From positions 1 to 49,081 of IMG/VR virus record IMGVR_UViG_3300033997_000029: a stretch of 49,081 nucleotides of DNA; one strand, 5' to 3'. The position numbers were made by a program, and so were the translations under genes. The first letter of the stretch is position 1. Each line of letters begins with the position of its first letter. The DNA comes from a virus. Shown one piece after another: positions 21,508-48,324 of this stretch. Below the pieces are notes generated by a model. The model worked only from the letters and a program-made list of their open reading frames with translations, searched no databases and was not told the origin of the DNA.

Positions 21508-21551
21508 ATATTGCTGCATAGATCAAAATCAATCAATAGCAAAAATAGAAC
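21508..21551 (-). promoter_or_regulatory. Family promoter upstream of the secreted JAMM gene
   Basis: On the minus strand: GTTCTA (21546-21551), 9 bases, TTGATT (21531-21536), 17 bases, CAATAT (21508-21513), then 27 bases to the start codon at 21480. It keeps the exact spacings of the promoter family described in the findings. Confidence 0.6.
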
Positions 21552-21562
21552 AGTATGCATAC

Positions 21563-21586
21563 AAAAAGGGAGCCAATAGGCTCCCT
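21563..21586 (-). terminator. Intrinsic terminator of the leftward early operon
   Basis: Read on the minus strand: AGGGAGCC, loop TATT, GGCTCCCT, then TTTTT. An 8-bp GC-rich stem followed directly by a T run. It lies 7 bases beyond the stop codon of the gene at 21593-22360 and ends the leftward operon before the independent JAMM gene. Confidence 0.85.
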
Positions 21587-21592
21587 ATTCAT

Positions 21593-22360
21593 TTAAATCC
21601 ATCCTTGCCGCCTATTCATAGGCGCTTGGTAGCCGCCAAACCCACGCTTAGCGGCACCCATGATTTCCTCATGGCTCAGCCGCTCAAACCTATGCTCAGT
21701 CGGGCTACGGTCGATTTTCCCGCCAGCCTTTAGCCAATCCTCTACCGTTTGCTTTGGCCGGTCATCAACTGCTGCCTCGCGCTTAACCTTGATGGTCATG
21801 GCGTCCGGCTTCCTGGCATTGGCAATCTCTTGCTGCTGGATAGCCTTGATCCTTGCGCGCTTTTCATGGCGCACTCTTGATGCCCGCCTTGATCTCATAC
21901 TGCGATTGTTCCTAGCGTTTGCTTCTCGCTTCTCATCAGCAGTCATGGCCTGCATCTGGATCGCGTCACGGACGAAATGGTAATTGCGTTCATCATCCTG
22001 CCTAACGCAGCCATAGCGCTTCATATAGCTGAGGATTCGGCTGCATTGCTTGGGCGGGAAGCCCGTACCCTTGCTTACTTCTGCGTTCTTGGCTGGTCCT
22101 TTGGCCTTCAGCCAGTCGCGGACCTGCTGAGCTTTCGATACTGCCATAGTCTTTTCTACACCTCTTAGCTTCTGTTTCAATGGCCTAGCCACTCTATATC
22201 GATATGGCTTGGCATCTCCAATACGTTCTAGCAGGCCAACCTTGACCATCGTTTGAATGCATCCACGGATGAGTGCAAGGTTCCCGCCTATCTCTGAGTG
22301 AACATGCGCAGCCGTCTTTGGAGATGATAGACAGCTGCGGATGCGCTCGTTTAGGTTCAC
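21593..22360 (-). CDS. Double winged-helix DNA-binding protein
   Basis: 255 residues. Two winged-helix-like segments: residues about 1-58 (RIRSCLSSPKTAAHVHSEIGGNLALIRGCIQTMVKVGLLERIG) and about 76-130 (QVRDWLKAKGPAKNAEVSKGTGFPPKQCSRILSYMKRYGCVRQ). A very basic Arg/Lys helix follows (ANARNNRSMRSRRASRVRHEKRARIKA). It is the last gene of the leftward operon, before its terminator. It is likely a phage regulator or nucleoid-type protein; target unknown. Confidence 0.6.
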   Translation of the reverse strand: MNLNERIRSCLSSPKTAAHVHSEIGGNLALIRGCIQTMVKVGLLERIGDAKPYRYRVARPLKQKLRGVEKTMAVSKAQQVRDWLKAKGPAKNAEVSKGTGFPPKQCSRILSYMKRYGCVRQDDERNYHFVRDAIQMQAMTADEKREANARNNRSMRSRRASRVRHEKRARIKAIQQQEIANARKPDAMTIKVKREAAVDDRPKQTVEDWLKAGGKIDRSPTEHRFERLSHEEIMGAAKRGFGGYQAPMNRRQGWI

Positions 22361-22893
22361 TTATTGCCCACCGCATGGCTGTCGATCAGGGCCAGAAGTT
22401 CCTCACCCATGCGGCGCTGCCCCGAGTTGATCCCGTGTCCGGCGCTGTTGGCAACCCATCTTGCCAAACTACGGAATCGGCTTAGGTCCACGCTATGCGC
22501 GCGCGGCGAGGCGAGGTCAGCGCGAACGTAGGCGACCTCCGATTCCACGATGCTATCTGAGCACCATGTGATCTCTTCTCCGGCCGGGTGCGGGAAAGGT
22601 TCATCGCTGTAATCGCCGTCACCGATCTGAAGGAAAATCTTCTCAGGGGCGGTGCTGACCATCCTCGAAACAACCTGCGAAGTCGCATCCTGACCACCCG
22701 GGGAGGGCTGGGCGGAGAGGGCGGCTTGCCAACCAGCGGCGTAGGCGACCTCCATGTTCCAGTACGTGAAGCTTGACGGCTGACCATATGCCGAACGAAT
22801 CCATGCACCGGCATAGCCTTCCGGGGGAAGCGCCTGTTGCAGCCTCACCCTCCCACCGGGCTGCACGTCCGCCAGGGTCTTGTCGTTTCTCAT
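22357..22893 (-). CDS. Ead/Ea22-like accessory protein (cassette copy B, gene 3)
   Basis: 178 residues starting MRNDKTLADVQPGGRVRL, the same opening as the truncated gene at 49012 (MNTDKTLAVVQPGGRVRL), with WQAALSAQPSPGGQ in the middle and a C-terminus shared with the gene at the left edge. Third gene of a three-gene cassette duplicated elsewhere in this genome in the opposite orientation. Overlaps both neighbours by 4 bases. Function unknown. Confidence 0.7.
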   Translation of the reverse strand: MRNDKTLADVQPGGRVRLQQALPPEGYAGAWIRSAYGQPSSFTYWNMEVAYAAGWQAALSAQPSPGGQDATSQVVSRMVSTAPEKIFLQIGDGDYSDEPFPHPAGEEITWCSDSIVESEVAYVRADLASPRAHSVDLSRFRSLARWVANSAGHGINSGQRRMGEELLALIDSHAVGNK

Positions 22894-23171
22894 GCTGATT
22901 CTCCTTTGACGCGGGCGAGGGCGGACTTTGCGTTGCTAAGCGTTTCGGTCTGCGCAACCCGAAGCAGCGCTTCACAACCGGATGTGTGCTTAATTAGCTC
23001 GTCAACCGTATCGATCAGCTCGGTGACTGCGGCGCGGGCCTCTAGCATTGCATCTGCTTGGATGTGATCGCCGGTCAACTCGCTTGCGTAAGCCATCCCC
23101 TTCAATGTGGCGTGCGCTTGCTCCATCTCCGCCAGCACATCAATACCCAGGGTCTTGTTGTCGGTGGTCAT
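22890..23171 (-). CDS. Small helical accessory protein (cassette copy B, gene 2)
   Basis: 93 residues, helical, starting MTTDNKTLGIDVLAEM and ending SALARVKGESA. It is a paralog of the genes at 48773-49015 (MTTDNKTLAVDVLAVM, ending SLARVRGESA), 28334-28600 and 28602-28853, all sharing an Ala-rich ARAAVxELID helix and a final LARVRGE motif. Function unknown. Confidence 0.65.
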   Translation of the reverse strand: MTTDNKTLGIDVLAEMEQAHATLKGMAYASELTGDHIQADAMLEARAAVTELIDTVDELIKHTSGCEALLRVAQTETLSNAKSALARVKGESA

Positions 23172-23494
23172 GCGGATGCTCCCATTGCGGCGTCGATCTT
23201 TCTGAGCAGCTCCATGCGATCAGCCTGTCTTGATGGGGAGCCATAGTCGATTGCGTACTGCACGCATTCGGATGCGTCTGGCAAGATATCCCGCAGCCCA
23301 TGTACCTCAGCGCGCAGCGCATCAGCCTCGCGCTCCTTCTCGCAGGACAGCGCCACGGCATCGAGCGCGGCCTTGGCGGCGTTCTGTAGCTCAGCGCGCA
23401 GGCGGGCTACCTCTGCCTCGTGGTCAGAGTGGAGGACGTAGTCGCCATCATCCCACCATTCCATAAAATCAGTTGACCAACTATATCGCTTCAT
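23168..23494 (-). CDS. Coiled-coil accessory protein (cassette copy B, gene 1)
   Basis: 108 residues. Residues 18-60 (DYVLHSDHEAEVARLRAELQ onward) are nearly identical to residues 28-70 of the protein at 48354-48776; the DNA is also nearly identical over roughly 140 bases. Ends in AMGASA like its paralog. The ribosome binding site (GGAGGGTGTTGGGATG) is also shared. Predicted coiled coil; function unknown. Confidence 0.7.
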   Translation of the reverse strand: MKRYSWSTDFMEWWDDGDYVLHSDHEAEVARLRAELQNAAKAALDAVALSCEKEREADALRAEVHGLRDILPDASECVQYAIDYGSPSRQADRMELLRKIDAAMGASA

Positions 23495-23524
23495 CCCAAC
23501 ACCCTCCTAGTGATTGATGGCTAC

Positions 23525-23568
23525 ATCATACCCATTACTAGGAACGATGAAGCCATCATGTGTGGAAC
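23525..23568 (-). promoter_or_regulatory. Family promoter of accessory cassette copy B
   Basis: Minus strand: GTTCCA (23563-23568), 9 bases ending TGATG, GCTTCA (23548-23553, a poor -35), 17 bases, TATGAT (23525-23530, a good -10), 30 bases to the start codon. The paralogous cassette at 48354 has the equivalent site at the same distance. Confidence 0.55.
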
Positions 23569-23592
23569 AGATCGTTTACGGAAATGGAACGA

Positions 23593-23778
23593 TCACTTGG
23601 CTAGGACGATCTTGGCGATTCGGTATGGAGGACAGCTAGCCCTATCGTTCATCCATTCTTTAGCCGAACGGGAATCCTCTCGGCTTGATCGAACGCCTCC
23701 GCGAATATCTCCTTCATTGTCCAGCACCACCCACCCAACAACATCGCCAGTCTTAGGCTTCTTCTTAGGCTTGGTCAT
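23593..23778 (-). CDS. Small basic hypothetical protein
   Basis: 61 residues, strongly basic N-terminus (MTKPKKKPKTGDVVGWVVLD). Start overlaps the preceding stop by ATGA and has AGGAAG upstream. Function not known. Confidence 0.55.
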   Translation of the reverse strand: MTKPKKKPKTGDVVGWVVLDNEGDIRGGVRSSREDSRSAKEWMNDRASCPPYRIAKIVLAK

Positions 23779-24107
23779 TTCACTTCCTCATAGGTGAAAT
23801 TGCATTCTTCAATGTAGTAGTACGTCTTGTCATGGCGGTTGTACTCAAACTCAGCCGTGCCACGATAGAGCGTATCGCCTACGTAGAACTCCTTGCTGTA
23901 GGAGTCTGCGCCGCAGTTGTAAGCACCTTGGCAATCCTCAAAAGCCTGGCTGCGAAGATCATCCTCAATCGTATCAAGCGCAACTTGCAGATCATCAAAT
24001 CGGTTGTTTTCAGGCGCATCATTGAATGCCTGAAGTGCAGCCTCAGCGGTTGCAAGAGCGGCCTTGGCATTAGCTACAGAGAGTTCAAGTTCTTGCTTAG
24101 TGGTCAT
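23775..24107 (-). CDS. Hypothetical protein with N-terminal coiled coil
   Basis: 110 residues from ATG 24107, chosen because GAGAGG precedes it. The first 45 residues form an Ala/Glu-rich coiled coil (LELSVANAKAALATAEAALQ); the rest is acidic and aromatic with repeated Tyr (YNRHDKTYYYIEECNFTYEE). No family recognised. Confidence 0.6.
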   Translation of the reverse strand: MTTKQELELSVANAKAALATAEAALQAFNDAPENNRFDDLQVALDTIEDDLRSQAFEDCQGAYNCGADSYSKEFYVGDTLYRGTAEFEYNRHDKTYYYIEECNFTYEEVK

Positions 24108-24118
24108 TTCAATTCCTC

Positions 24119-24583
24119 TCAGGTTATTGGTTCGTTTTCTTTGTGCCACTGCGCATGGTGTGTAGTACATAGCCATCTAACATCAAGCGGCTTGTTGTAG
24201 TCGTCATGGTGACCATGCGTTCTAATTTCGCCGCATACCTCACATACGCCTCTAATTAAAATTCCATCTCTTATTGCATTTCCTACAGCCTGCCTAGCTT
24301 TGTATTTCTTATGGTGCTTTGCTCTATGCCGTTGAATGCAAGCCAACTTCTTTTCAGAAGAGTCATACTTCTTTTTAGCTTTTAAAACAGATTTCTTCCC
24401 ATTTTCTGTTTTTTGGTATGCAATCATTGCTGCAACTCGATGCGGAAGATTTGCTCTAGCCTTGTCGTAGGCTTTTGCGCAATCTTTACATTTTGCAGAA
24501 AGACCATCAGGGCTAGCTGCTCTAAGATGGAATTCGCTGTGTATCTTTGTCTTTTTGCAGGTGTTGCAATGTTTTGTGTCCAT
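24119..24583 (-). CDS. HNH-type zinc-binding endonuclease-like protein
   Basis: 154 residues. N-terminal CxxC zinc knuckles (HCNTCKKTK then CKDCAKAYDKAR), a highly basic linker, then CEVCGEIRTHGHHDDYNKPLDVRWLCTTHHAQWH near the end. The two CxxC pairs and the HxHHDDY and LCxxHHxxWH motifs fit a Zn-HNH nuclease. It is AT-richer than its neighbours and separates ssb from the rest of the operon, consistent with a freestanding homing gene. Activity inferred. Confidence 0.65.
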   Translation of the reverse strand: MDTKHCNTCKKTKIHSEFHLRAASPDGLSAKCKDCAKAYDKARANLPHRVAAMIAYQKTENGKKSVLKAKKKYDSSEKKLACIQRHRAKHHKKYKARQAVGNAIRDGILIRGVCEVCGEIRTHGHHDDYNKPLDVRWLCTTHHAQWHKENEPIT

Positions 24584-24620
24584 TGCAGCACCATATCACA
24601 TATCAGAATCGAATGGAATA

Positions 24621-25070
24621 TCAGAATGGAATATCATCTGATTCAAAATCATCCATCGGCGGAGTCTGTTGCTGTGGCTGCTGTCGCTGTGGCGTACTAC
24701 CGCGCGATCCGACAGAGCCTCCGCTTTGGCCTTCCTGCTTTCCGCCAAGCATCTTCAACTCACTAGCAACAATGTCGGTTGTGTATTTCTCTACACCATC
24801 CTGACCAGTGAATTTATCGTACTTCAGCGAACCCTCGATGTAGACGCTTGATCCTTTCCGCAGATATTCGCCTGCAATTTCCGCAATCTTCCCGAAGAAT
24901 ACAACTCGATGCCACTGAACATCCTCCTTGCGATTGCCTTCCTTGTCCTTGTAGACATTGGTTGTTGCTACGCTGATCCGAGTGATGCACTTGCCAGCTT
25001 GGGTGTATTTACAATCAGGGTCATTTCCCAAATTTCCGATCAACTGAACTTTGTTCAATCCGCTTGCCAT
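24621..25070 (-). CDS. ssb: Single-stranded DNA-binding protein
   Basis: 149 residues with the bacterial SSB OB fold (NKVQLIGNLGNDPDCKYTQAGK, WHRVVFFGKIAEIAGEYLRKGSSVYIEGSL), then a Gln/Gly-rich linker and the acidic tip DDFESDDIPF that recruits partner proteins. Start ATG 25070 has AAAGGAAGTGAG upstream. Located next to YqaJ exonuclease and RecT, forming a phage single-strand annealing module. Confidence 0.92.
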   Translation of the reverse strand: MASGLNKVQLIGNLGNDPDCKYTQAGKCITRISVATTNVYKDKEGNRKEDVQWHRVVFFGKIAEIAGEYLRKGSSVYIEGSLKYDKFTGQDGVEKYTTDIVASELKMLGGKQEGQSGGSVGSRGSTPQRQQPQQQTPPMDDFESDDIPF

Positions 25071-25071
25071 C

Positions 25072-26618: not shown

Positions 26619-26674
26619 TTTCCTCTCCATATCTGCATCGTACAGCTATTTTACCGCGATGTAGTCTCAAATCT

Positions 26675-27966: not shown

Positions 27967-28006
27967 GTTTCCTCTCCGTATGGGCGTCTGCCCTGTCAGT
28001 GAGGCT

Positions 28007-28050
28007 AGATTACGCCTCCCAAGCGTTCCAATAAATAGCAAAATCGTACA
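28007..28050 (-). promoter_or_regulatory. Candidate leftward early promoter (degenerate family member)
   Basis: Minus strand: TAATCT -10 (28007-28012) followed by AG as in other family members, 17 bases, TTTATT (28030-28035) and a poor GTTCYA-like block about 9 bases further. 40 bases upstream of the first leftward gene. It faces the rightward family site at 28057-28100, giving a divergent control region. Confidence 0.45.
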
Positions 28051-28056
28051 CACACT

Positions 28057-28100
28057 GTTCTACAAATGGTGTTGATCCGCCCGCCAATCCTAGGCAAAGT
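28057..28100 (+). promoter_or_regulatory. Rightward family site in divergent control region
   Basis: GTTCTA (28057-28062), 9 bases, TTGATC (28072-28077), 17 bases, CAAAGT (28095-28100). The upstream blocks are good but the -10 is weak, and it ends only 6 bases before the ATG at 28107. Transcripts from it would be nearly leaderless for that gene. Confidence 0.45.
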
Positions 28101-28106
28101 GGGGCC

Positions 28107-28331
28107 ATGGCAAAGCACCGAAAACCACCGGCAGCATGGCTGCACCTCCATAGTGGCGATATGATCCACACCACTATCCCCAAGCACAAAATTGACACAT
28201 ACCTAGAGGTGATGAGCGAGCAAGGTTACACGATAGAGCCTCAGCCGACAGTCAAGGGCTACATGCTGCACTGCGTCAAAAGTCCGCATGATGGGCCTAA
28301 ACCAACGAAACTTAAACTTGTTAAGGGATGA
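28107..28331 (+). CDS. Small basic hypothetical protein
   Basis: 74 residues, basic, with HLHSGDMIHTTIPKHKIDTYLEVM in the middle. First gene rightward of the divergent region. Its TGA overlaps an ATG at 28328. Function unknown. Confidence 0.5.
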   Translation: MAKHRKPPAAWLHLHSGDMIHTTIPKHKIDTYLEVMSEQGYTIEPQPTVKGYMLHCVKSPHDGPKPTKLKLVKG

Positions 28332-29175: not shown

Positions 29176-29361
29176 ATGAAACCTAGTTGGGATGGCGCGC
29201 CAGATTGGGCAAATTGGCTTTCGCAGGATGGCGATGAAAAATGGCATTGGTACGAGAACCAGCCATCATGGGATTATCCAACAAAACAATGGGTTACAAA
29301 TGGTAGATATGAGGAGGCAAATGCTGTTGATGGCAATGGGACACTAGAGGAGCGCCCGTAA
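29176..29361 (+). CDS. Trp-rich small protein (APDWAxWL family), copy 1
   Basis: 61 residues, seven Trp, starting MKPSWDGAPDWANWLSQDGD. It is a paralog of the gene at 33556-33777 (MSKPNWSSAPDWASWL), sharing the W..APDWA.WL...W.WYEN pattern found in many small phage proteins. Function unknown. AGGAGAGAG precedes the start. Confidence 0.55.
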   Translation: MKPSWDGAPDWANWLSQDGDEKWHWYENQPSWDYPTKQWVTNGRYEEANAVDGNGTLEERP

Positions 29362-29561
29362 TGGACTTCGCAGACTCCGCAAGCGACCTGAGCGAATACC
29401 ACCTGGCCCTTTCGCTCCGCCAGCACGCTAACCGTAAGCCTGAGACTGAACTGCCGATCTGTTCCCACTGCGAGGAATATCCTGTCCATGTGACCGGCAT
29501 GGGTTCGCGGTTCAAGTATTGCCATCGCTGTACTGAGGAACTGACTGGGAGGAAGGTGTGA
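29361..29561 (+). CDS. DksA/TraR-like C4 zinc-finger protein
   Basis: 66 residues: a short N-terminal helix (DLSEYHLALSLRQHANRK) then CSHCEEYPV and CHRC about 20 residues later. This is the layout of phage TraR proteins, short DksA relatives that bind in the RNA polymerase secondary channel. It may redirect host transcription during infection. The zinc pattern is visible; the polymerase role is inferred from the family. Confidence 0.65.
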   Translation: MDFADSASDLSEYHLALSLRQHANRKPETELPICSHCEEYPVHVTGMGSRFKYCHRCTEELTGRKV

Positions 29562-29836
29562 TGATGGACAAATACGCATGGCAGGCCGCTAGCTACTACT
29601 CAGCAAAGCGAATCATCGCCCGTAAGTATCGCGCAAAGTCATTCTTGGCTGAGGAACTGTTGGTCGATGTGGTCAAGGACATTGGCGAAACGATGGACTT
29701 CCGCACATTCGGCGGAACGATCCGTTCGCTGTCTAACGATGGCTTCATTCAGCGGATCGGATATGCATCAGCAAAAACTAGCAATGGCAGCGCCAAGCCT
29801 GCATGGATCAAGGTTGCACATTGGGGTAACAAGTGA
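29561..29836 (+). CDS. Winged-helix-like hypothetical protein
   Basis: About 91 residues. GGGAGG lies upstream of GTG 29558 and ATGs 29561 and 29564; I use ATG 29561. The FGGTIRSLSNDGFIQRIGYASA region looks like a winged-helix recognition helix and wing. Function unknown; may bind DNA. Confidence 0.55.
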   Translation: MMDKYAWQAASYYSAKRIIARKYRAKSFLAEELLVDVVKDIGETMDFRTFGGTIRSLSNDGFIQRIGYASAKTSNGSAKPAWIKVAHWGNK

Positions 29837-30921: not shown

Positions 30922-31170
30922 ATGCCTGTAGAAAAGAAGACGCGAGAGGTTTACTACAGCCCTCGCCGTGGTCGCCACTTCATGACGAAGATCGGGGCCG
31001 CTCGCGCTGAGGCTAATGCGCGCATGTACAAAGCTTTCCCGTCTGAGGAGGCTGAGTATGAAGACGATTACGGCCGTTGCACATATCCTGGCTGGAACTT
31101 CACGGAAGAGCCGCGTCTAGTGGCTGTTCGTGATCGTCTAGTTGCTCGCTACATGAAGGCTCTTGGCTGA
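30922..31170 (+). CDS. Hypothetical protein at head of replication operon
   Basis: 82 residues, basic then acidic (YYSPRRGRHFMTKIGAARAEANARMYKAF, then EEAEYEDDYGRC). Preceded by the structured leader whose closing stem includes the ribosome binding site. Stop overlaps the next start (TGATG). No family recognised. Confidence 0.6.
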   Translation: MPVEKKTREVYYSPRRGRHFMTKIGAARAEANARMYKAFPSEEAEYEDDYGRCTYPGWNFTEEPRLVAVRDRLVARYMKALG

Positions 31171-32051: not shown

Positions 32052-32439
32052 CGGGCTGAAAGCGTGTTTGGCTAGCTCCGATCCTTGGCCGCCTACGCTC
32101 CCTGAGTTCCGCTCCCGCTGTCTCGGCATTCCCTCGCTGCAAGAGGTAAAGCTAGAGATTCACAGCGGCCAGCGTAGCCCGTTTACGATCATGGTTTGGC
32201 AGCAGATCGATGGCTACCTGTTTAAGCAGTCATCGGCGGACAAGTCGGATCGGATGCTGCGGGACGCTTATGAGCTGGCTAGGGAGATGGTGATGCGAGG
32301 CCAGCCGTTGCCCGAGGTTCCAGAAGCAGCCATTGCCCATGCTGAGCCTGAGTTTAAGCCAGCAAGCAAGGAATCGGCCGAGGCAGCGCTTGCTGAGCTT
32401 GGATCATTGTTCCGTGTTCGTGACCAAAGTGTTCCATAA
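31900..32439 (+). CDS. Replication protein P-like helicase loader
   Basis: 179 residues from ATG 31900 (GGAG upstream); ATG 31915 is an alternative. METLWLRLSEIYGHKWTSAYG and WAKGLGGLTAAQVGNGLKACLASSDPWPPTLPEFRSRCLG match the lambda P-like N-terminal family that loads the host DnaB helicase. It overlaps the preceding gene by 152 bases in another frame, much longer than the usual O-P overlap. No helicase or polymerase gene is present in the window, so the phage depends on the host replisome. Confidence 0.7.
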   Translation: MATKTMETLWLRLSEIYGHKWTSAYGTDATSSAGQTWAKGLGGLTAAQVGNGLKACLASSDPWPPTLPEFRSRCLGIPSLQEVKLEIHSGQRSPFTIMVWQQIDGYLFKQSSADKSDRMLRDAYELAREMVMRGQPLPEVPEAAIAHAEPEFKPASKESAEAALAELGSLFRVRDQSVP

Positions 32440-32474
32440 GTGATATTGATCGGATCAAGATACAAGCGTAATTT
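32431..32474 (+). promoter_or_regulatory. Family promoter downstream of P-like gene
   Basis: GTTCCA (32431-32436), 9 bases ending TGATA, TTGATC (32446-32451), 17 bases, TAATTT (32469-32474). The -35 block is part of the palindrome TTGATCGGATCAA. It lies across the stop codon of the P-like gene, with 77 bases to the next start. Confidence 0.65.
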
Positions 32475-32551
32475 GAACTCAACGGCGCACCCAAGCCAGT
32501 AGATCAGGCAAAGGTGCAGAAGATGATTGATGAATTGGGAGAGGCTTTTAA

Positions 32552-32755: not shown

Positions 32756-32937
32756 ACACAGACACGAAAGCAGTAGCCCGCGAGCTAGTAGCCTGGTTTA
32801 CCAGCGGAAATAGCGTGCCGGTGGATGTTCGGCAGACGGCTAAGGTGAGCGGAGAGCGGATCGTGGCGGATGCAGCGCGTCTCCATCGTTACATCCATGA
32901 AGATGATCGTTCTACTGACGATGTTGATAGGATTTGA
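32752..32937 (+). CDS. Small hypothetical protein
   Basis: 61 residues from GTG 32752. Helical start (KAVARELVAWFTSGNSVPVDVRQTAK) and an acidic end. Its last codons carry the -35 region of the next family promoter. Function unknown. Confidence 0.5.
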   Translation: MNTDTKAVARELVAWFTSGNSVPVDVRQTAKVSGERIVADAARLHRYIHEDDRSTDDVDRI

Positions 32938-32952
32938 GTAAATCCGTAATCT
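32909..32952 (+). promoter_or_regulatory. Family promoter, near-consensus
   Basis: GTTCTA (32909-32914), 9 bases ending CGATG, TTGATA (32924-32929), 17 bases, TAATCT (32947-32952), then AG. The spacer contains the dyad GGATTT-GAGT-AAATCC. 30 bases before the start at 32983. Confidence 0.7.
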
Positions 32953-32982
32953 AGACCTACACCAACGAACTGAGACGCAGCC

Positions 32983-33986: not shown

Positions 33987-34030
33987 GTTCTACCGGTGAT
34001 GTTGATCGACTGATAGGATAGAGGCAATCT
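33987..34030 (+). promoter_or_regulatory. Family promoter before nin-like block
   Basis: GTTCTA (33987-33992), 9 bases ending TGATG, TTGATC (34002-34007), 17 bases, CAATCT (34025-34030), then AG. 35 bases before the start at 34066. It begins 3 bases after the preceding stop codon. Confidence 0.65.
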
Positions 34031-34065
34031 AGCCACATCGGGCAACGGCCTAACGGAGAGATGAG

Positions 34066-34248
34066 ATGAATAGCCGCGAAGTTGTTATGCAATATTCTCA
34101 GATTCTTGCTGAGTTTCATGAGGCTTGTAGAAAGGCGGCTATCAAGCATGACCGCGCGATGAGGATTCATAATGTTGTCGGAATTGTTTTGCGAGTAGCG
34201 TTCATCTTCTCGGTTGCGATGGCTGTTATTCCCAAGATTTTTTGCTAA
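34066..34248 (+). CDS. Small membrane protein
   Basis: 60 residues; helical N-terminal half, then one membrane helix (IVLRVAFIFSVAMAVIP). GGAGAG precedes the ATG. First gene after a family promoter. Function unknown. Confidence 0.5.
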   Translation: MNSREVVMQYSQILAEFHEACRKAAIKHDRAMRIHNVVGIVLRVAFIFSVAMAVIPKIFC

Positions 34249-35701: not shown

Positions 35702-35858
35702 GAAGATTGGATATGTTGTTGGGGTCCGGTTGGATAGCGGCCATTTGAACGTAGAGTTCAATGCGCGCCCCGGCTTGACGGATGATGAAGCTTTCGACTT
35801 GGCAATCACCACTATTGAGCATGAGCTTAATTACGCCAAGCTGGACTATGTAGAGTGA
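35691..35858 (+). CDS. Small acidic hypothetical protein
   Basis: 55 residues, acidic, with beta then helix layout (IGYVVGVRLDSGHLNVEFNA, then TDDEAFDLAITTIEHEL). GGAG precedes the ATG. Function unknown. Confidence 0.5.
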   Translation: MGDEKIGYVVGVRLDSGHLNVEFNARPGLTDDEAFDLAITTIEHELNYAKLDYVE

Positions 35859-36019
35859 CCCCTAAAGAGCAAGCCTACCAAGCTGGAACCTGGGCTAGGG
35901 AGTCAGGCCGAGGAATCGACAGCAGGCCAACTTACGGGCCGACAGAAGAATGCGCCGAGCTTCGCAAAGAGTGGGAGCGCGGGTGGAAGGATGAGGATGC
36001 TAGGAGGAAGCGGAAGTGA
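35855..36019 (+). CDS. Ribosome modulation factor (RMF)-like small protein
   Basis: 54 residues from GTG 35855. The pattern QAYQAGTWARESGR ... EECAELRKEWERGWKDEDAR resembles RMF-fold proteins common in phages (A..G..A...G, then R..W..GW.D). A ribosome or other host target is inferred from the fold only. Overlaps both neighbours by 4 bases. Confidence 0.5.
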   Translation: MTPKEQAYQAGTWARESGRGIDSRPTYGPTEECAELRKEWERGWKDEDARRKRK

Positions 36020-37230: not shown

Positions 37231-37680
37231 ATGACCCACACCAACGCAACCACGCTTCGCAACGCGCTTGCCGCAGCTATCAAGAACCACGTAACCACAA
37301 ATGGCCTGAAGGCTAAGGATGCCGCAGAGGCCGCAGGCGTGCAGTACAGCCGCATCAGCCAAATCCTGCGAGGCGACGTAGCCAAGATTAGCTCCGATGC
37401 CCTAGTAAACGTGCTGGGCGGATTCGGCTACCGGCTGACTGGCATCACCGGCTCGGGCAATGGCACTAAGATTGTGCTGAGTCTCGATAAGGCTGAGTGC
37501 AAGGTTCTGCCAGAGATTGAATCACCCGATTTCCCGAGGAATGAAGTTGAAGAAGGAAAGCCGTTCCCCATCGAGGTAGGCCATGTGGTTGATGGCGAGG
37601 CTGTCCCCGATTCGGTCGTTATGTCGGATGAGCTTGAGTCCGACCCCGACGCAGGCCGAGTGGTGAGCGACGATGAGTAA
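37231..37680 (+). CDS. XRE-family helix-turn-helix regulator
   Basis: 149 residues. Residues 10-72 carry an XRE-type helix-turn-helix (AIKNHVTTNGLKAKDAAEAAGVQYSRISQILRGDVAKISSDALVNVLGGFGYRL), as in HigA-like antitoxins and phage repressors. The C-terminal half is acidic and disordered. No toxin gene adjoins it. Could regulate the early promoter family; evidence is limited to the fold. Confidence 0.7.
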   Translation: MTHTNATTLRNALAAAIKNHVTTNGLKAKDAAEAAGVQYSRISQILRGDVAKISSDALVNVLGGFGYRLTGITGSGNGTKIVLSLDKAECKVLPEIESPDFPRNEVEEGKPFPIEVGHVVDGEAVPDSVVMSDELESDPDAGRVVSDDE

Positions 37681-38606: not shown

Positions 38607-38640
38607 CCAATAATGATCGTTCCACATATGCACCGCTGAG

Positions 38641-38972
38641 TCCTATGCAGCCTATTGCATAGGATTCCAGCAAGAGTAAGATTGGATTCAACAGATGTAG
38701 GCGAGCGCAGCGCCCCGGTAGTCCGGATACCTGCGAAGTCGAGCAGCCGCAGGTCTTGGCTTGACGAAACAACAGCGGCACCTAGAGCGTCGTGTAGCCT
38801 TCGGGCGTCTCCGCAGAGTGATCTAGGCGAGTAGCGACGTAATCGAGGCTGAGGGATGGGGTTGGAGATTTTGGAACCCTAACGCCATCTAGACGGTACA
38901 TGCCGCTAACGTGTATCGTAAAGTGACCCGCCAGTGGCTCTAGATGGCTTAGGGCTGCTGGCGGGGGAGATA
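38641..38972 (+). ncRNA. Large structured non-coding RNA region (ornate RNA candidate)
   Basis: No credible reading frame on either strand. Strong local pairing: 9-bp hairpin 38641-38664; CCGG-TAGT-CCGG 38715-38726; ACCTGCG/CGCAGGT 38729-38754; CCTAGA/TCTAGG 38781-38827 enclosing GCC-TTCG-GGC; and a 16-bp stem with one bulge, 38877-38893 with 38939-38954. CCCGCCAG inside that stem's loop (38927-38934) matches CTGGCGGG outside it (38958-38965), a pseudoknot signature. Large phage RNAs located beside tRNA genes (GOLLD and ROOL classes) are known, so this could be a relative or a new class. Boundaries are approximate. Confidence 0.55.
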
Positions 38973-38973
38973 T

Positions 38974-39090
38974 GGAATCATTGACGGAGTGGTTTAACGT
39001 GATCCCGTTGCAGGGATAGCGGGTAGCTTGCTCTAGCGAAGAGTTAGGGAATAACAAGTCCGCCGCAGGTTCGAATCCTGTATGATTCCG
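38974..39090 (+). ncRNA. tRNA-like RNA with 8-bp acceptor and 5-bp T stem
   Basis: GGAATCAT (38974-38981) pairs with ATGATTCC (39082-39089), and GCAGG-TTCGAAT-CCTGT forms a perfect T arm directly stacked on it. That gives a 13-bp arm as in bacterial tRNA-Sec. A D-like arm ACG-GAGTGGTTTAA-CGT follows. The next hairpin, ATCCC-GTTGCA-GGGAT, has a 6-base loop instead of 7. A 45-base multi-hairpin insert closed by GCGG/CCGC replaces the variable loop. No TCA anticodon is present. It is an aberrant tRNA or a tRNA-like domain of the larger RNA. Confidence 0.5.
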
Positions 39091-39106
39091 CTAGTGAGTT
39101 ATCGCA

Positions 39107-39207
39107 TGATGATTGGAGTATGGCGAAAGCCTAATGGTTAACTAGGGTCATGCCTAGGAAGTGGTTCAAATCCACTAGCTCAGGGATCGACGGATTCACA
39201 ATCATCA
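39107..39207 (+). ncRNA. Second tRNA-like structured RNA
   Basis: Outer stem TGATGATTG/CAATCATCA (39107-39115 with 39199-39207). Inside: GGC-GAAA-GCC (39122-39131), CTAGG-GTCATG-CCTAG (39142-39157) with another 6-base loop, and AGTGG-TTCAAAT-CCACT (39160-39176), a T-arm look-alike. The 22 bases between that arm and the outer stem rule out a normal tRNA. Function unknown. Confidence 0.4.
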
Positions 39208-39226
39208 GCCGATAGTTCATTTGAAG

Positions 39227-39365
39227 TGTTGTTTGTAGTGGAGAATGCGCAGGTAGTGACTGCGAATCACTGGGGTATATCACGGCGGTGCGCACCGCCC
39301 CCTGAGCAGGCCGAAAGGTCAACGTGATAAGCCGGGATCACCTCCGGCCTCCACTACAAACAGCA
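39227..39365 (+). ncRNA. Structured RNA displaying a 16S anti-Shine-Dalgarno-like loop
   Basis: Closing stem of at least 14 perfect pairs (39230-39243 with 39349-39362). Inner hairpins: CGCAG-GTAGTGA-CTGCG (39248-39264); stem TATCACG/CGTGATA (39278-39284, 39323-39329) enclosing GGCGGT-GCGC-ACCGCC and GGCC-GAAA-GGTC; then GCCGG-GATCACCT-CCGGC (39331-39348). That last loop contains GGATCACCTCC, identical to the 3' end of bacterial 16S rRNA before its final bases. Ends 4 bases before tRNA-Ser, so it may be released by tRNA processing. Confidence 0.5.
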
Positions 39366-39369
39366 TTTA

Positions 39370-39455
39370 GGGTCTACGCGCACAGGGTGCAAACTGGCCT
39401 TGAAAGCCAGGCTATCCAGAGATGGATAACTGTTCGATTCAGTGTAGGCCCGCCA
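39370..39455 (+). tRNA. tRNA-Ser(TGA)
   Basis: Acceptor GGGTCTA/TAGGCCC, anticodon arm CTGGC-CTTGAAA-GCCAG with anticodon TGA, long class II variable arm (GCTATCCAGAGATGGATAA), T loop TTCGATT, G73 and encoded CCA. The D arm is odd: GCAC-AGG-GTGC has a 3-base loop. Confidence 0.8.
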
Positions 39456-39461
39456 AGTTTC

Positions 39462-40619: not shown

Positions 40620-40654
40620 GCTCGACGCCCATCGTTCCATCCATGAACTCGATT

Positions 40655-40698
40655 GTCCTATCCGTAATGTTGATAGGATTAGTGCACATGGCTAATCT
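40655..40698 (+). promoter_or_regulatory. Family promoter before lysis region, near-consensus
   Basis: GTCCTA (40655-40660), 9 bases ending TAATG, TTGATA (40670-40675), 17 bases, TAATCT (40693-40698), then AG. It sits just beyond a strong terminator and 40 bases before the start at 40739, so it restarts transcription toward the lysis genes. Confidence 0.72.
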
Positions 40699-40738
40699 AG
40701 CTCCACACACAAAGGCCACGGGCCAATAGGGAGATGAG

Positions 40739-42309: not shown

Positions 42310-42375
42310 CCTGCACGCGAGGTTCAGCCAACCTTGGTAGCCTTGAACTGCGATCAGCAGTAAGAGGTAATCCCC

Positions 42376-43329: not shown

Positions 43330-43341
43330 GAGGATGTGACT

Positions 43342-44376: not shown

Positions 44377-44574
44377 ATGCGCCACGTAACAATGGCAACG
44401 CTGTACCCGTGGTTGGAACTGTCATGCCCCGTATGTGATGAGGACACGGACTATCCTGTCCATGAAGTAGATTACGAACAAATCTGGAACAGTCAGTTCC
44501 AGCAGCCCATCTGTCACTGCGGCCACAAATACAGCATGATTGAGGTGCGCCAGAGGGGCGTTATCTACGGATGA
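44377..44574 (+). CDS. Zinc-ribbon small protein
   Basis: 65 residues. CPVCDEDTDYPVHEVDYEQIW ... CHCGHKY gives two CxxC/CxC pairs spaced as a zinc ribbon. Function unknown. Confidence 0.5.
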   Translation: MRHVTMATLYPWLELSCPVCDEDTDYPVHEVDYEQIWNSQFQQPICHCGHKYSMIEVRQRGVIYG

Positions 44575-44579
44575 GTTAA

Positions 44580-44954
44580 ATGGAATTGGTACTGATTCGC
44601 GGCCTTCCGGGTAGTGGCAAGTCCACTCTGGCTAAGTCGATGCAAATGCACCACCACATTGAGGCTGATATGTACTTCGTCCAGCCCTATGTCGGATATG
44701 TGTTTGATCCGTCGAAGCTTCGCGCTGCGCATGGCTGGTGCCAGTCTGGGGCCCGCAGGATGCTTGAAGCTGGACGCCATGTGGTGGTTTCTAACACTTT
44801 CACGCAGAAGTGGGAAATGCAGCCTTACTTTGATATGGCAGCTAGCCTGAACATTCCCGTCCGCGTGATCGAGGCTACGGGCAATTTCAAGAATGTGCAT
44901 GGCGTGCCGTATGAGGCTATTGAGCGCATGCGTGCTCGATGGGAAGAAATCTAA
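44580..44954 (+). CDS. P-loop kinase (AAA_33 / polynucleotide kinase-like)
   Basis: 124 residues starting MELVLIRGLPGSGKST, with Walker A at 8-16. An ADMYF segment near residue 29 and VVSNTFTQKWEMQPYF near 70 resemble the AAA_33 / T4 PNK kinase fold, in which Asp binds the acceptor hydroxyl. It lacks a phosphatase domain. Substrate unknown; RNA or nucleotide phosphorylation is inferred. Confidence 0.7.
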   Translation: MELVLIRGLPGSGKSTLAKSMQMHHHIEADMYFVQPYVGYVFDPSKLRAAHGWCQSGARRMLEAGRHVVVSNTFTQKWEMQPYFDMAASLNIPVRVIEATGNFKNVHGVPYEAIERMRARWEEI

Positions 44955-44973
44955 CAACTGAGAGGAATAAGGG

Positions 44974-45258
44974 ATGAACAAGGACAACGCACGGGACTAC
45001 CTGCCGCTGGTGCAGGCTTTGGCAGAAGGAAAAGTGATTCAGATGCTTGAAGGCCATGGCTATTGGGTTGATATGGTCGAGATTTCGTCAGAAATCCCGG
45101 CAAGACTTTACCGCATCAAGCCTGAGCCGCGAGAGATTTGGGTTAACCATCATGAAGAAGTTGGCCTTGGATACAACTTCTACGCGAGTAAAGAAGCCGC
45201 TGCCGATGGTATCCGTCCTGGTTGGAAGCCTGTTTGCTTCCGCGAGGTGATCGAATGA
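44974..45258 (+). CDS. Hypothetical protein
   Basis: 94 residues. LVQALAEGKVIQMLEGHGYWVDMVEISSEIPARLYRIKPEPREIWVN is a pattern common in accessory phage proteins; the second half has YNFYASKEAAADG. GAGAGGAA precedes the ATG. Function unknown. Confidence 0.55.
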   Translation: MNKDNARDYLPLVQALAEGKVIQMLEGHGYWVDMVEISSEIPARLYRIKPEPREIWVNHHEEVGLGYNFYASKEAAADGIRPGWKPVCFREVIE

Positions 45259-45671
45259 ACCTAGAACAGATCGACACCAGCACTACGGCGGGTAAGGGTC
45301 TAATTGATGCTGCTAGGGCTGCGCTTCCATTTATTGCCTACGCATTTGATCAAGGAATCGACGGTGCAGAGGAAGCAGGTCGCGCTATCGAGGAGGCACT
45401 TCGTGACGATCAGCTCCAAGGTTACGTGTTGGTGCCGGTGGAGCCGACTGAAGAGATGCTGGACGCAGGACGTGCTGCGGTAATGGCGGAGCACTGCGCA
45501 GGTCCTAAATGGACGCCGCGCCAGCACTTTGAGGCCTCAGGTCGCTCAACGGCAGGAATCCCCGAGGACGTTCTGGACGAGCGCGGTCCGCTGACCAAGG
45601 AAAGCACTGCCGCAATGGTGTTTGGGGCCATGCTCGCCGCTCGCCCAGAGGTGTCCAATGTCAATGACTGA
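45255..45671 (+). CDS. Ead-like accessory protein
   Basis: 138 residues from ATG 45255 (ATGA overlap with previous gene). YVLVPVEPTEEMLDAGRAAVM is a motif frequent in Ead-type phage accessory proteins, followed by SGRSTAGIPEDVLDE and AMVFGAMLAARPE. Function unknown. Confidence 0.55.
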   Translation: MNLEQIDTSTTAGKGLIDAARAALPFIAYAFDQGIDGAEEAGRAIEEALRDDQLQGYVLVPVEPTEEMLDAGRAAVMAEHCAGPKWTPRQHFEASGRSTAGIPEDVLDERGPLTKESTAAMVFGAMLAARPEVSNVND

Positions 45672-45873
45672 AGTGGTAGAGGAGTCGCTGAAGGCAGATG
45701 CCAGGTTCCGGCATTTGACGGTGATGCCGCTTGAGCGAGAGGAAGAGTGCGAATGCTGCGGCGGTCTTGGATATATCGATGAGACCCTTGGCGGGTACGC
45801 ATTCTCAAATCCCAAGGCACAATGCCCGAATTGTGACGGTAATGGATACTGGATTAGGAGGGCTTACGTATGA
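45658..45873 (+). CDS. DnaJ-type zinc-finger small protein
   Basis: 71 residues. CECCGGLGYID and CPNCDGNGYW are two CxxCxGxG motifs, half of a DnaJ zinc finger. Overlaps the preceding gene by 14 bases. May bind RNA or an unfolded partner; function unknown. Confidence 0.55.
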   Translation: MSMTEVVEESLKADARFRHLTVMPLEREEECECCGGLGYIDETLGGYAFSNPKAQCPNCDGNGYWIRRAYV

Positions 45874-46043
45874 CCGCAGGCGACAAGATCAAGCTTAGGG
45901 CTGAGTTGGCTTCATTGGCTGAGAAAGATGAATACTTATCAAACAACCAAGAAATTGTCCATGAAATGATGGGGATTATAGGTTCCATGGATGATGAAAC
46001 CGCAGACGCCCTAATGAAAAAACTCGGACTGGATGGGGAGTGA
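45870..46043 (+). CDS. Small acidic helical protein
   Basis: 57 residues (MTAGDKIKLRAELASLAEKD at the start), acidic and helical. AGGAGG precedes the ATG, which overlaps the previous stop. Function unknown. Confidence 0.5.
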   Translation: MTAGDKIKLRAELASLAEKDEYLSNNQEIVHEMMGIIGSMDDETADALMKKLGLDGE

Positions 46044-46046
46044 GGC

Positions 46047-46280
46047 GTGAATGAGTGGGACCGCCAAGTATTTATTGCAGAAACTGGGATTGATCCAGTC
46101 GATGAAGGTGATAAACAAATTATCCAGTTAACTAAAATTACTTGTTACTGTGTGAAATTTGGAAATGACCTTGTGATGTTCCACGGCGAGCATGACTCTG
46201 ATGGAAATATTTACTCTGAACACAATGGGCAGGTCTACCGTTTGACTGTAAAGACAAAGGATAGGAAGGTAGATGAATAA
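46047..46280 (+). CDS. Small hypothetical protein
   Basis: 77 residues from GTG 46047. Beta-rich second half (CYCVKFGNDLVMFHGEHDSDGN). No family recognised. Overlaps next gene by 8 bases. Confidence 0.5.
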   Translation: MNEWDRQVFIAETGIDPVDEGDKQIIQLTKITCYCVKFGNDLVMFHGEHDSDGNIYSEHNGQVYRLTVKTKDRKVDE

Positions 46281-46506
46281 GGTAGGCAAGCCATTCAAGA
46301 TGGAGCCTTTGACTAGGAAGGCTAGGAACGCTAAGCAGCGGACGGCAATGGCTGTAGGGGTGGATATTGACCGACTGATGTGGGAGCGAGTTGGGGCTAT
46401 TGACGGTGATAGTTCAAGATTCATGGTTGTAGCATCGTGTGACAGTCGCTGGGATACAATTCGCTGGGTTCAGACTCAGAATGACCCTGATTGGAAGATC
46501 GTGTAG
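46273..46506 (+). CDS. Small basic hypothetical protein
   Basis: 77 residues; basic start (LTRKARNAKQRTAMAVGVD), then a Trp-rich end (DSRWDTIRWVQTQNDPDWKIV). AGGAAGG precedes the ATG. Last gene before terminase. Function unknown. Confidence 0.5.
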   Translation: MNKVGKPFKMEPLTRKARNAKQRTAMAVGVDIDRLMWERVGAIDGDSSRFMVVASCDSRWDTIRWVQTQNDPDWKIV

Positions 46507-46508
46507 TA

Positions 46509-46522
46509 TTCGATATATCGAA
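46509..46522. promoter_or_regulatory. Perfect 14-bp palindrome upstream of small terminase
   Basis: TTCGATATATCGAA is a perfect dyad in the 35-base gap between the preceding stop and the small terminase ATG. It could be an operator, or part of the packaging (pac/cos) site recognised by the small terminase. Confidence 0.5.
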
Positions 46523-46541
46523 AAAGTAGACGGAAACAGAG

Positions 46542-46835
46542 ATGGCAGGTCCTAACAAACCTAAAACGGGCGGCAGGAAGCCTGGGGTGCCCAACAAGGC
46601 CACTACAGCGTTTAGAGAGACGGTTACACGTCTGCTAGAGGACAACGCTGAGAACGTCGCACGTTGGCTTGAGCATGTGGCGGCAGATGACCCTGACAAG
46701 GCATTGCAGCGGCTTGCCCAGTTGGCCGAGTTCGCTGCGCCTAAGCTAAGCCGATCTGAGGTTAAGGCAGAGGTCGAGAACAAGGGTGGTCCTATCATCA
46801 ATTTGACCCTGACAAAGCCAGATGGCGGGACTTAA
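46542..46835 (+). CDS. Putative small terminase subunit
   Basis: 97 residues. Basic start PNKPKTGGRKPGVPNKATTAFRETVTRLL, a pattern seen in small phage proteins directly before TerL, then a helical region (ENVARWLEHVAADDPDKALQRLAQLAEFAAPKLSR) and a short C-terminal strand (PIINLTLTKP). Overlaps terL by 14 bases. Would recognise the packaging site. Shorter than classic TerS, so confidence is moderate. Confidence 0.65.
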   Translation: MAGPNKPKTGGRKPGVPNKATTAFRETVTRLLEDNAENVARWLEHVAADDPDKALQRLAQLAEFAAPKLSRSEVKAEVENKGGPIINLTLTKPDGGT

Positions 46836-48258
46836 CCTTAGTCTTCACGCTAAGCAGACCATTGCGTATGAGTCTGAGGCGACTGAAATCCTATACGGCG
46901 GCGCGGCGGGTGGCGGTAAGAGCCACCTTTTCCGCGTGGCCTCGATCATGTGGTGCGCGACGGTTCCGGGTTTGCAGGTCTACTTGTTCCGGCGTCTGTT
47001 CGATGACCTGTATAAGAATCACATGGAAGGCCCGACTAGCTTCCCTGCCCTACTCGGTGAGTGGATCGATGCGGGGCATGTGAAGATCAACTACTCAAAG
47101 AACTTCATTGAGTTCTGGAATGGGGCGAAGATTCACCTTTGCCACCTTCAGCATGAGAAGGATGTAATCAAGTATCAGGGTGCCGAAATCCATGTGCTGC
47201 TGATGGATGAGTTGACTCACTTCAGCGCATCTATGTACCGGTATCTTCGCGGTCGTCTGCGTCTAGGTGGACTCGTAGTTCCGCCTGCCATGAAGGGGCT
47301 ATTCCCGAGAATACTATGCGGCTCTAATCCTGGTGGCCCCGGCCACAACTGGGTCAAGGCTGGATTTGTAGATAATGCCCCGCCGCTGGCAATCGTCCAG
47401 ATGGATAAGAAGGAGGGTGGCCTGAAGCGGCAGTACATCCCCGCCCGTCTGGATGACAACCCGACTCTGACTGAGAATGACCCCGACTATGCCGATCGCC
47501 TAGAGGGATTGGGCAATGCCGCGCTAATTAAGGCAATGCTGTCCGGTGACTGGAACATCGTGGCTGGCGGTGCGCTGGATGATGTTTGGTCTGAACGGGT
47601 CATCGTTCCTGCATTCAACGTTCCGCATAGCTGGACTGTGGATCGCTCCTTTGACTGGGGCAGCACTCACCCGTTCTCTGTGTGCTGGTGGGCTGAGGCT
47701 GACGGTACGGAGGCAACGCTCCCCAACGGCGACAAATTCTGTCCGCCCCGTGGGTCTATCATCCTGTGCGGGGAATGGTATGGGGCCAAGGCTCCTAATG
47801 AGGGCTTGAAGATGGCCCCGCGTGAGGTTGCCCAAGGCATAAAGGACCGTGAAGCGGCCATGCGACAATCGGGCCATATCTCGCGCAATGTCATGCCAGG
47901 ACCAGCCGACAACCAAATCAGTGCAGTGTCCCAACCTGGGACGCCTACTATCGCCGATGAGATGGCATCCGTTGGCATCCGCTGGGGCAAGTCTGATAAG
48001 GCGCCTGGAACCCGCAAGATCGGCCTAGAGTTGCTGCGATCCCGCGTGAAGGAGGCCGGCAAGGAGTACCCCGAGCGTCCTGCAATCTACTTCATGGATC
48101 ATTGCCGCTCAGCGATTGCCCAGCTTCCAGTGCTGCCTCGTGACCCCAAGAATCCGGATGACGTAGACACCTCAGCAGAGGACCATGCCTATGACGCCAT
48201 CCGCTATCGTGTGCTGGCTGGGAAGAAGTTCGACCCCATCGCAGCGGTCCGTGGCTAG
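46822..48258 (+). CDS. terL: Terminase large subunit
   Basis: 478 residues. ATPase: Walker A GGAAGGGKS at 26-34, Walker B VLLMDE at 125-130, coupling motif CGSNPGGPGHNW. Nuclease: DRSFDWGS (Asp274, Asp278) and EDHAYDAIRY (Asp454, Asp458). It cuts concatemers and pumps DNA into the prohead. A cassette of accessory genes separates it from the portal, which resumes at 843 if the genome is circular. Confidence 0.92.
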   Translation: MAGLNLSLHAKQTIAYESEATEILYGGAAGGGKSHLFRVASIMWCATVPGLQVYLFRRLFDDLYKNHMEGPTSFPALLGEWIDAGHVKINYSKNFIEFWNGAKIHLCHLQHEKDVIKYQGAEIHVLLMDELTHFSASMYRYLRGRLRLGGLVVPPAMKGLFPRILCGSNPGGPGHNWVKAGFVDNAPPLAIVQMDKKEGGLKRQYIPARLDDNPTLTENDPDYADRLEGLGNAALIKAMLSGDWNIVAGGALDDVWSERVIVPAFNVPHSWTVDRSFDWGSTHPFSVCWWAEADGTEATLPNGDKFCPPRGSIILCGEWYGAKAPNEGLKMAPREVAQGIKDREAAMRQSGHISRNVMPGPADNQISAVSQPGTPTIADEMASVGIRWGKSDKAPGTRKIGLELLRSRVKEAGKEYPERPAIYFMDHCRSAIAQLPVLPRDPKNPDDVDTSAEDHAYDAIRYRVLAGKKFDPIAAVRG

Positions 48259-48280
48259 TGTTCTATCTATGACCTGTACT

Positions 48281-48324
48281 GTTCCATTCCTGATATTTAT
48301 CAAATCAAACAACGATGGTAGATT
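48281..48324 (+). promoter_or_regulatory. Family promoter of accessory cassette copy A
   Basis: GTTCCA (48281-48286), 9 bases ending TGATA, TTTATC (48296-48301), 17 bases, TAGATT (48319-48324), 29 bases to the start at 48354. Matches the site before the paralogous cassette at 23494 in layout and distance. Confidence 0.6.

Follow-up and report, generated by a model that had tools for sequence, protein, structure and literature searches.

Predicted sigma-70-type promoters fused to tandem operators form an exchangeable cassette family in phages of the Stenotrophomonas/Xanthomonas group

The IMG/VR virus record IMGVR_UViG_3300033997_000029 (49,081 bases, analyzed over its whole length and called the window below) belongs to the Stenotrophomonas/Xanthomonas phage group, and the phage is described as lytic. 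A sequence-only reading of this DNA had proposed a genome-wide promoter family in which a GTTCYA block, a TTGATM-like hexamer and a TAATCT-like hexamer follow each other at rigid distances. Here, nucleotide comparison establishes a family of predicted promoters, a longer operator and its repeats, their conservation in related phages and the exchange of these units as cassettes. The best overall explanation, whose chances we consider evenly balanced, is that sigma-70-type promoters are fused to tandem operators, are served by a dedicated and probably activating regulator, and are exchanged as cassettes. Taken singly, the promoters are very probably real and a sequence-specific regulator at the repeats is likely; given such a regulator, we somewhat favor an activator.

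Searching the window for GTTCYA-N9-TTGATM-N17-TAATCT with up to three mismatches gave six matches, whereas 100 shuffles averaged 0.07. To train a position matrix, we took 21 sites from other genomes and excluded the window and the near-identical genome G002. This matrix recovered the sites at 28057, 32431, 32909, 33987, 40655, 48281 and 21508, and nothing else at a score of at least 5. Six of the seven scored between 36 and 62 and the site at 48281 scored 15.6, whereas 200 Markov shuffles of the window reached at most 10.2. Eight sites and one degenerate site had been listed before. Most of this list is recovered by the pattern or the matrix, but the entries at 23525 and 28007 on the minus strand are weak or deviant. 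The element at 23525 has GCTTCA in place of the TTGATM hexamer ascribed to it, although two GTTCCA blocks are present. The site at 28007 lacks GTTCYA, its own strand reading TGTACG; its TAATCT and TTTATT are kept in relatives. Likewise, the site at 48281 does not show the consensus hexamers (it reads TTTATC and TAGATT), and the block at 40655 reads GTCCTA. A position check confirmed that the sites are intergenic or at gene ends and face start codons. The proposed absence from the structural operon holds inside the operon, where the matrix scan of the structural region (1-21 kilobases, kb) found no operator scoring 14 or more, but at 48281 a site stands between the gene for the large terminase subunit and genes toward the portal.

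The GTTCYA block proved to be conserved in relatives. The motif is present in the window and in 14 related genomes, namely Stenotrophomonas phages CUB19, S72 and SOVA965, Xanthomonas phage Kintu, Silvergun and nine IMG/VR records, and every relative examined carries family sites at both orthologous and non-orthologous positions. None of the nine IMG/VR records contained a match to the reversed pattern used as a control. In its non-structural half, the window shares 81-89% DNA identity with CUB19, S72/SBP, SOVA965, Kintu and Silvergun. The phage phiPSA1, which has 9 of 21 structural but 0 of 16 early genes in common with the window, has no motif site, whereas SOVA965, with 1 of 21 structural and 11 of 16 early genes in common, carries motif sites. 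Consequently, the motif family belongs to the non-structural genome half. Two observations on the records themselves may be added. IMG/VR 3300024308_000056 and 3300024308_000066 are 98-100% identical to parts of the window and are probably the same phage in another assembly or sample. The record OZ038342.1 (L009), named Acinetobacter phage Silvergun, has about 84% DNA identity to these Stenotrophomonas phages over the matched parts and does not give a host, and its host name therefore deserves checking.

An independent view of the promoter elements came from a scan of viral contigs with GTYCYAYNNNNRRTRTTGATMGGAT, a pattern in which the -10 is not used. It returned 14 loci, and all 11 that belong to this phage group have TAnnnT at the expected place (nine at the 17-base-pair (bp) position, two at the 16-bp position). 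The three loci outside the group have no TAnnnT at either position and look like chance matches, and two out-of-group loci found by the -35/-10 part alone are without GTTCYA. In 84,980 bacterial and archaeal genomes the combined operator/-35/-10 pattern had two matches, in unrelated organisms and at about chance level. This single scan disfavors a host operator, while a host factor might still bind the operator in another arrangement.

We described the promoter anatomy on 28 non-redundant sites, with the G of GTTCYA as position 0. The seed set was chosen partly by the -35 and -10; positions -3, 9-11 and 49-50 were not used in collection. The conserved upstream part comprises A at -3, GTYCYAY at 0-6, R/T/G at 9-11, TTGAT at 15-19 and GG near 21-22. 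Further downstream follow a YAATCT-like hexamer at 38-43 with A 39 and T 43 fixed, a pyrimidine at 49, and an A at 50 in 27 of the 28 sites. In promoter terms, A-11 and T-7 of the -10 are kept in 28/28 (partly by ascertainment), with T or C at -12. Position 50 lies seven bases past the last -10 base, the usual sigma-70 start distance, and is hence the predicted start. The hexamers (TTGATM or TTGCAT, and TAAT-like) are 16 or 17 bp apart, within the 16-18 bp of sigma-70-type promoters. The claim of an exact 17-bp spacing is right for the sites listed before, but 16 bp occur at several sites in relatives (Silvergun 6644 and 14318, G001 3820, G006 4118, G002 17327) and at 38640, a window member that the list had missed. 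In the relatives' promoters with 16-bp spacers, the start A keeps its distance from the -10. Such flexibility is expected of sigma-70 and thus argues against a rigid-spacing rule. The -10 elements match TATAAT at about three of six positions. Consensus sigma-70 promoters elsewhere are few, with 8, 5 and 5 found compared to 12.8, 12.7 and 17.5 expected from shuffles. The sigma-70-type reading is supported by the contig scan (11/11 compared to 0/3 among the chance matches) and by the A at the predicted start, pointing to a host RNA polymerase with a sigma-70-type factor as the likely user of these start sites.

That the fixed upstream block is an activator or operator site is likewise supported by the comparison, but it is not the separate, lone hexamer first described. 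The operator consensus, AnYGTTCYAYnnRTGR followed by GA, is longer than GTTCYA and overlaps the -35. Furthermore, it is often tandem: a second GTTCYA-like block stands upstream at 17 of the 28 sites, 10 times at a distance of 21 bp and 7 times at 22 bp, where 0.18 would be expected per offset. The distal copies at 21 bp read CAtyGTTCYATCCATGAnnnnGAYY and match the core more tightly. Counting by eye, we found 33 close matches to GTTCYATCCATGA in all genomes; 22 are paired with a proximal copy at +21, another 10 are proximal copies, and the last is inside a gene. Hence, 32 of 33 strong cores are at these promoters, and no stoperator-like scatter away from promoters was seen. The 22 pairs were chosen solely by the distal core and, 21 bp further downstream, a GTTC-like block. 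By eye, 22/22 of their proximal copies contain the TT of TTGA, compared to 1/22 distal copies. The anatomy set gave the same picture, with TT in 28/28 proximal and 0/17 distal copies. GA, on the other hand, is found in 27/28 proximal copies and in 10/10 distal copies at -21. Operator and -35 therefore overlap and yet are under separate constraint, since TT is proximal-specific and GA is common to both copies. In the simplest reading, a protein would recognize GTTCYAYnnRTGR...GA in both copies, and the proximal copy would additionally be shaped into a -35. A single dyad (GTYCYATC...GATAGGAT) is clear at 40655 and 38640 but is not general, and we therefore prefer direct repeats.

To compare cassettes we used 102 site pairs from different genomes with cassettes at least 75% identical; these pairs are not independent of each other. 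Related DNA lies on both sides in 38 pairs, on one side in 49 and on neither side in 15, so that 64 of 102 have unrelated DNA on one or both sides, as in the T4-type cassettes with their non-homologous neighbors. Within one genome, the stretches from -25 to +62 share a median identity of 44% and at most 68%. Because this identity is low, the cassettes are read as old copies under selection and not as recent duplicates. On the sequence comparison, predicted promoter cassettes are kept across genomes while the flanking genes change, like mobile regulatory cassettes. The leaders downstream of the predicted start (40655-40730, 33987-34066 and in relatives) have a common wording, ACACCAACG..ACTGAG or CCACGGGCCAATAGGAGA, which extends beyond the ribosome site.

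We propose the following mechanism. Host RNA polymerase with a sigma-70-type factor would use the -35 TTGATM, a 16-17 bp spacer and the weak -10 YAATCT. Each promoter would be fused to one or two in-line operator copies, the proximal one covering about -51 to -31 and sharing the GA of the -35 TTGA, the distal one lying two helical turns upstream on the same DNA face. A dedicated DNA-binding protein, probably phage-encoded, would bind the repeats side by side and touch the polymerase from beside the -35, activating units with a weak -10 and sometimes a weak -35. The whole cassette (operator, promoter and sometimes leader and ribosome site) would be exchanged between phages as a portable control module, and newly acquired genes, the tRNA region and the lysis region would thereby be placed under the same control. 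Activation is preferred because the -10 elements are weak, because members with a poor -35 (TTTATC, GCTTCA) keep their operators, because the copies lie upstream on one helical face, and because consensus sigma-70 promoters elsewhere are fewer than in shuffles. In nearly all cases the operators are upstream of the -10 and start. A farther-reaching version is doubtful: one phage regulator, possibly the protein at 21593, would read the 21-bp direct repeats at about ten promoters and run nearly all non-structural transcription, including the tRNA region and a leaderless early gene, and the cassettes would double as recombination points for new genes.

Several points weigh against activation by tandem repeats in exchanged cassettes. 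The window promoters at 21508, 28057 and 33987 are without a distal copy. A repressor, too, could act at the -35, which the proximal operator overlaps, and repression would suit the extra inverted GGAAC copy that stands in the spacer at SOVA965 32223, Silvergun 8504 and G006 9560. Because even the earliest-looking divergent region (28.0 kb) carries the operator, an activator made by the phage would depend on basal expression at the outset. In addition, the invariance of the -35 and -10 is partly built in by the way sites were collected, and the cassette pairs share the dependence mentioned above.

Some of these points lead to a possible, though less probable, reading. The promoters and operators would be the same, but a phage repressor over the -35 would silence the non-structural units later in infection or in a relative's dormant state. 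This would fit the position of the proximal copy, the inverted copies that some relatives have in their spacers and the operator at the divergent early region, and the Adephagia authors propose repression for similar promoters called ESAS (PMC11373665). However, operators almost never cover the -10 or the start, weak -10 elements and operator-bearing members with a poor -35 are hard to square with repression, and the CUB19 paper reports no lysogeny-associated proteins.

A concentration switch of the C-protein type is improbable. Here, a distal high-affinity copy would activate, and the proximal copy on the -35 would repress as the protein accumulates. Two tandem sites with the nearer one on the -35 and the tighter match of the distal copies at -21 would agree with such a switch, as would the predicted model of the protein at 37231, which is similar to small XRE proteins, among them C.Esp1396I (for its OL/OR logic, see PMC4041747). 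But several promoters have the proximal copy only, C operators are palindromic OL+OR pairs within 35 bp and not direct repeats, and the predicted recognition helix of the 37231 protein varies between phage groups while the operator consensus does not.

It is very improbable that plain sigma-70 promoters were copied around the genome with GTTCYA as an inherited flank that binds no protein. Promoter parts alone would explain expression, and cassettes are exchanged between phages, but GTTCYA, A at -3, TG and GA are fixed in spite of the 44% median identity within genomes, and the distal copy is conserved at positions with no promoter role. That the 21-bp repeats are replication or recombination sites lying near promoters by chance is hardly credible: direct repeats of 21-22 bp, together with the two winged-helix domains predicted for the 21593 protein, are reminiscent of iterons and their initiators, but 32 of 33 strong cores stand at a fixed distance from a -10 (by eye) and are spread over many units instead of clustering at one origin.

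Turning back to a dedicated activator, the window offers a short list of candidates. The sequence-only reading had named the proteins at 37231, 32552 and 21593 and a TraR-like protein at 29361, and of these 37231 and 21593 are still candidates. The proteins at 37231, 21593 and 29558 are each found in exactly the same 10 phage records of the group, so that presence and absence cannot separate them. In the model of the 21593 protein (mean pLDDT 68.5, pTM 0.31), a long helix comes after two winged-helix domains, and the first predicted recognition helix of the protein is broadly conserved across the group. In contrast, the 37231 protein has three recognition helices between phage groups (QYSR, QLSR, ANSR), whereas the operator consensus is identical in all three; as the obvious reader of the operator it is disfavored. 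The 32552 protein has no match in SOVA965, G001 and G004, all of which carry the motif, and is therefore unlikely as the regulator. For 29361 the match to the TraR/DksA family is weak, and proteins of this type act on RNA polymerase and are not known to recognize a DNA box. The candidates tested included no detectable protein of the AraC type. At 35855-36019 the window also encodes a protein of 54 amino acids whose match to ribosome modulation factor is weak (E 7e-4) and does not reach the Pfam cut-off.

Individual members of the family show further features (Table 1). The promoter ahead of the tRNA region is a tenth member, and its proximal copy, 21 bp after the distal one, lies within a 12-bp inverted repeat. 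One strict pattern matches this promoter in 13 of 15 genomes (the window and 12 relatives); it misses SOVA965, where the copy reads GTTTCAC, and the short fragment G009. Between this promoter and the tRNAs, about 770 conserved bases (38690-39460) contain no convincing gene. Blocks in this region end in tRNA-like GGTTCGAATCC and GGTTCAAATCC, and Rfam returned solely six tRNAs, located after it. Possibly, the region encodes degenerate or oversized tRNA-like RNAs.

At the 28057 promoter, transcription is predicted to begin at the A of the start codon (ATG) of gene 28107 in 10/10 aligned genomes, and the CUB19 annotation lets gp41 start exactly at the equivalent base 31051. Residues 1-18 of the encoded protein are conserved, and position 19 is not Met in three relatives. 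We thus predict a leaderless early mRNA at 28107.

The region from the -35 to the start of the 23525 element is an inverted repeat (23515-23558) with 18-bp arms. In SOVA965, G001, G006 and G008, its cassette stands before different coding starts and has 88-95% identity over about 95-127 bp. In CUB19 and Kintu, pairing in 23515-23558 appears to be kept with changed bases (CATC/GATG to CACT/AGTG), and the element may therefore be a hairpin or palindromic site and not a simple promoter. Among the family members upstream of the portal and structural genes, the promoter at 48281, which follows the terminase large subunit gene, is the closest; read-through from 48281 and 40655 may therefore serve the structural operon. 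The promoter at 21508 is the same in G003, G004, G007 and S72, and a terminator hairpin (21567-21586) lies just upstream of it.

Table 1. Predicted promoters, related elements and candidate regulator genes in the window.
Feature	Coordinates	Strand	Elements and description
Promoter	21501..21551	-	Operator GTTCTATTTTTGC 21539-21551; -35 TTGATT 21531-21536; 17 bp; -10 CAATAT 21508-21513; predicted start A 21501
Candidate regulator	21593..22360	-	255 amino acids; two predicted tandem winged-helix domains; first recognition helix LIRGCIQTMV
Divergent member or related element	23518..23590	-	GTTCCACACATGA 23556-23568; GTTCCATTT... copy 22 bp upstream; GCTTCA, no recognizable -35; TATGAT 23525-23530
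Predicted leftward promoter, recombination operon	28000..28050	-	TTTATT 28030-28035; -10 TAATCT 28007-28012; start A 28000; no GTTCYA on this strand
Predicted rightward early promoter	28057..28107	+	Operator 28057-28069; -35 TTGATC 28072-28077; -10 CAAAGT 28095-28100; predicted start A 28107
Candidate regulator	29558..29836	+	Small, basic and conserved protein of 92 amino acids; winged-helix-like by inspection only, no family match
Promoter	32409..32481	+	Distal GTTCCG copy 32409; operator 32431-32443; -35 TTGATC 32446-32451; -10 TAATTT 32469-32474; predicted start A 32481
Promoter	32888..32959	+	Distal GTTACATCCATGA 32888-32900; proximal 32909-32921; -35 TTGATA 32924-32929; -10 TAATCT 32947-32952; predicted start A 32959
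Promoter	33987..34037	+	Operator 33987-33999; -35 TTGATC 34002-34007; -10 CAATCT 34025-34030; predicted start A 34037
Candidate regulator	37231..37680	+	XRE-type (HTH_37); low-confidence acidic C-terminal tail
Promoter of tRNA/non-coding region	38619..38689	+	Distal GTTCCACATATGC 38619-38631; proximal GTCCTATGCA at 38640; -35 TTGCAT 38655-38660; 16 bp; -10 TAAGAT 38677-38682
Promoter ahead of lysis region	40634..40705	+	Distal GTTCCATCCATGA 40634-40646; proximal 40655-40667; -35 TTGATA 40670-40675; -10 TAATCT 40693-40698; predicted start A 40705
Promoter between terminase large subunit gene and small genes toward portal	48260..48331	+	Distal GTTCTATCTATGA 48260-48272; proximal 48281-48293; weak -35 TTTATC 48296-48301; -10 TAGATT 48319-48324

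With the same host-type promoter and operator before most non-structural gene blocks and the tRNA cluster, one factor could control all of them, and shuffling can put new genes behind the cassette. Accessory genes of lytic phages can thus arrive with, or under, a ready-made control element. The motif defines a testable regulon, for which start sites are predicted and a few candidate regulators can be named. These phages are considered for therapy against Stenotrophomonas maltophilia, most of their genome is of unknown function, and a map of transcription units would help annotation.

For 'Cubvirus' and relatives, the phage group treated here, the literature found contains no description of a promoter, an operator or a regulator, but parts of the arrangement have counterparts elsewhere. 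Two sites in direct repeat 21 bp apart, the nearer one overlapping the -35, are the layout of AraC I1-I2 at a class II activator promoter. The repeats found here are alike in layout and differ in that none of the candidates tested was recognized as an AraC-type protein. C-protein operators (PMC4041747) also have two tandem sites upstream of a promoter, but these are palindromic and serve one operon, whereas the repeats here are direct and form a genome-wide set. The stoperators of cluster A mycobacteriophages (PMC9283540) stop elongation at numerous sites across the genome. Like them, the operator is a short asymmetric site with many copies in one phage genome; unlike these scattered elongation stops, its strong cores are concentrated at promoters.

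Closest are the ESAS of cluster K mycobacteriophages, which in Adephagia are seven intergenic elements of 46-47 bp with SigA-like hexamers 17-18 bp apart and an inverted repeat (PMC11373665; PMC3203893). In both systems a genome carries several intergenic promoter elements that are nearly identical and include a repeat as the presumed binding site of a regulator, the elements are kept before gene families across related phages, and a leaderless transcript is predicted. Sequence and host are unrelated, however, and the ESAS repeat is inverted, whereas here mainly direct repeats of 21-22 bp stand upstream. ESAS are also absent from the divergent early region of Adephagia, where the present family has an operator. 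Accordingly, we find an ESAS-like set of multiple intergenic promoters per genome with a common repeat conserved among relatives, but not the ESAS proper, a 17-bp inverted repeat upstream of a 13-bp start-associated sequence, of which some copies have a partial dyad only. Portable promoter cassettes (PeSLs) are known from T4-type phages (Arbiol et al., 2010, as cited in PMC4177764). The likeness lies in conserved promoter cassettes beside changing genes. In the T4-type cassettes each promoter is joined to a terminator stem-loop; here, a terminator hairpin was seen directly before the 21508 promoter. T4 early promoters belong to a different phage group and are not known to have a tandem operator. 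Taken together, the set described here works like ESAS and T4-type cassettes and differs from them in its sequence, its host group and its direct-repeat operator of 21-22 bp.

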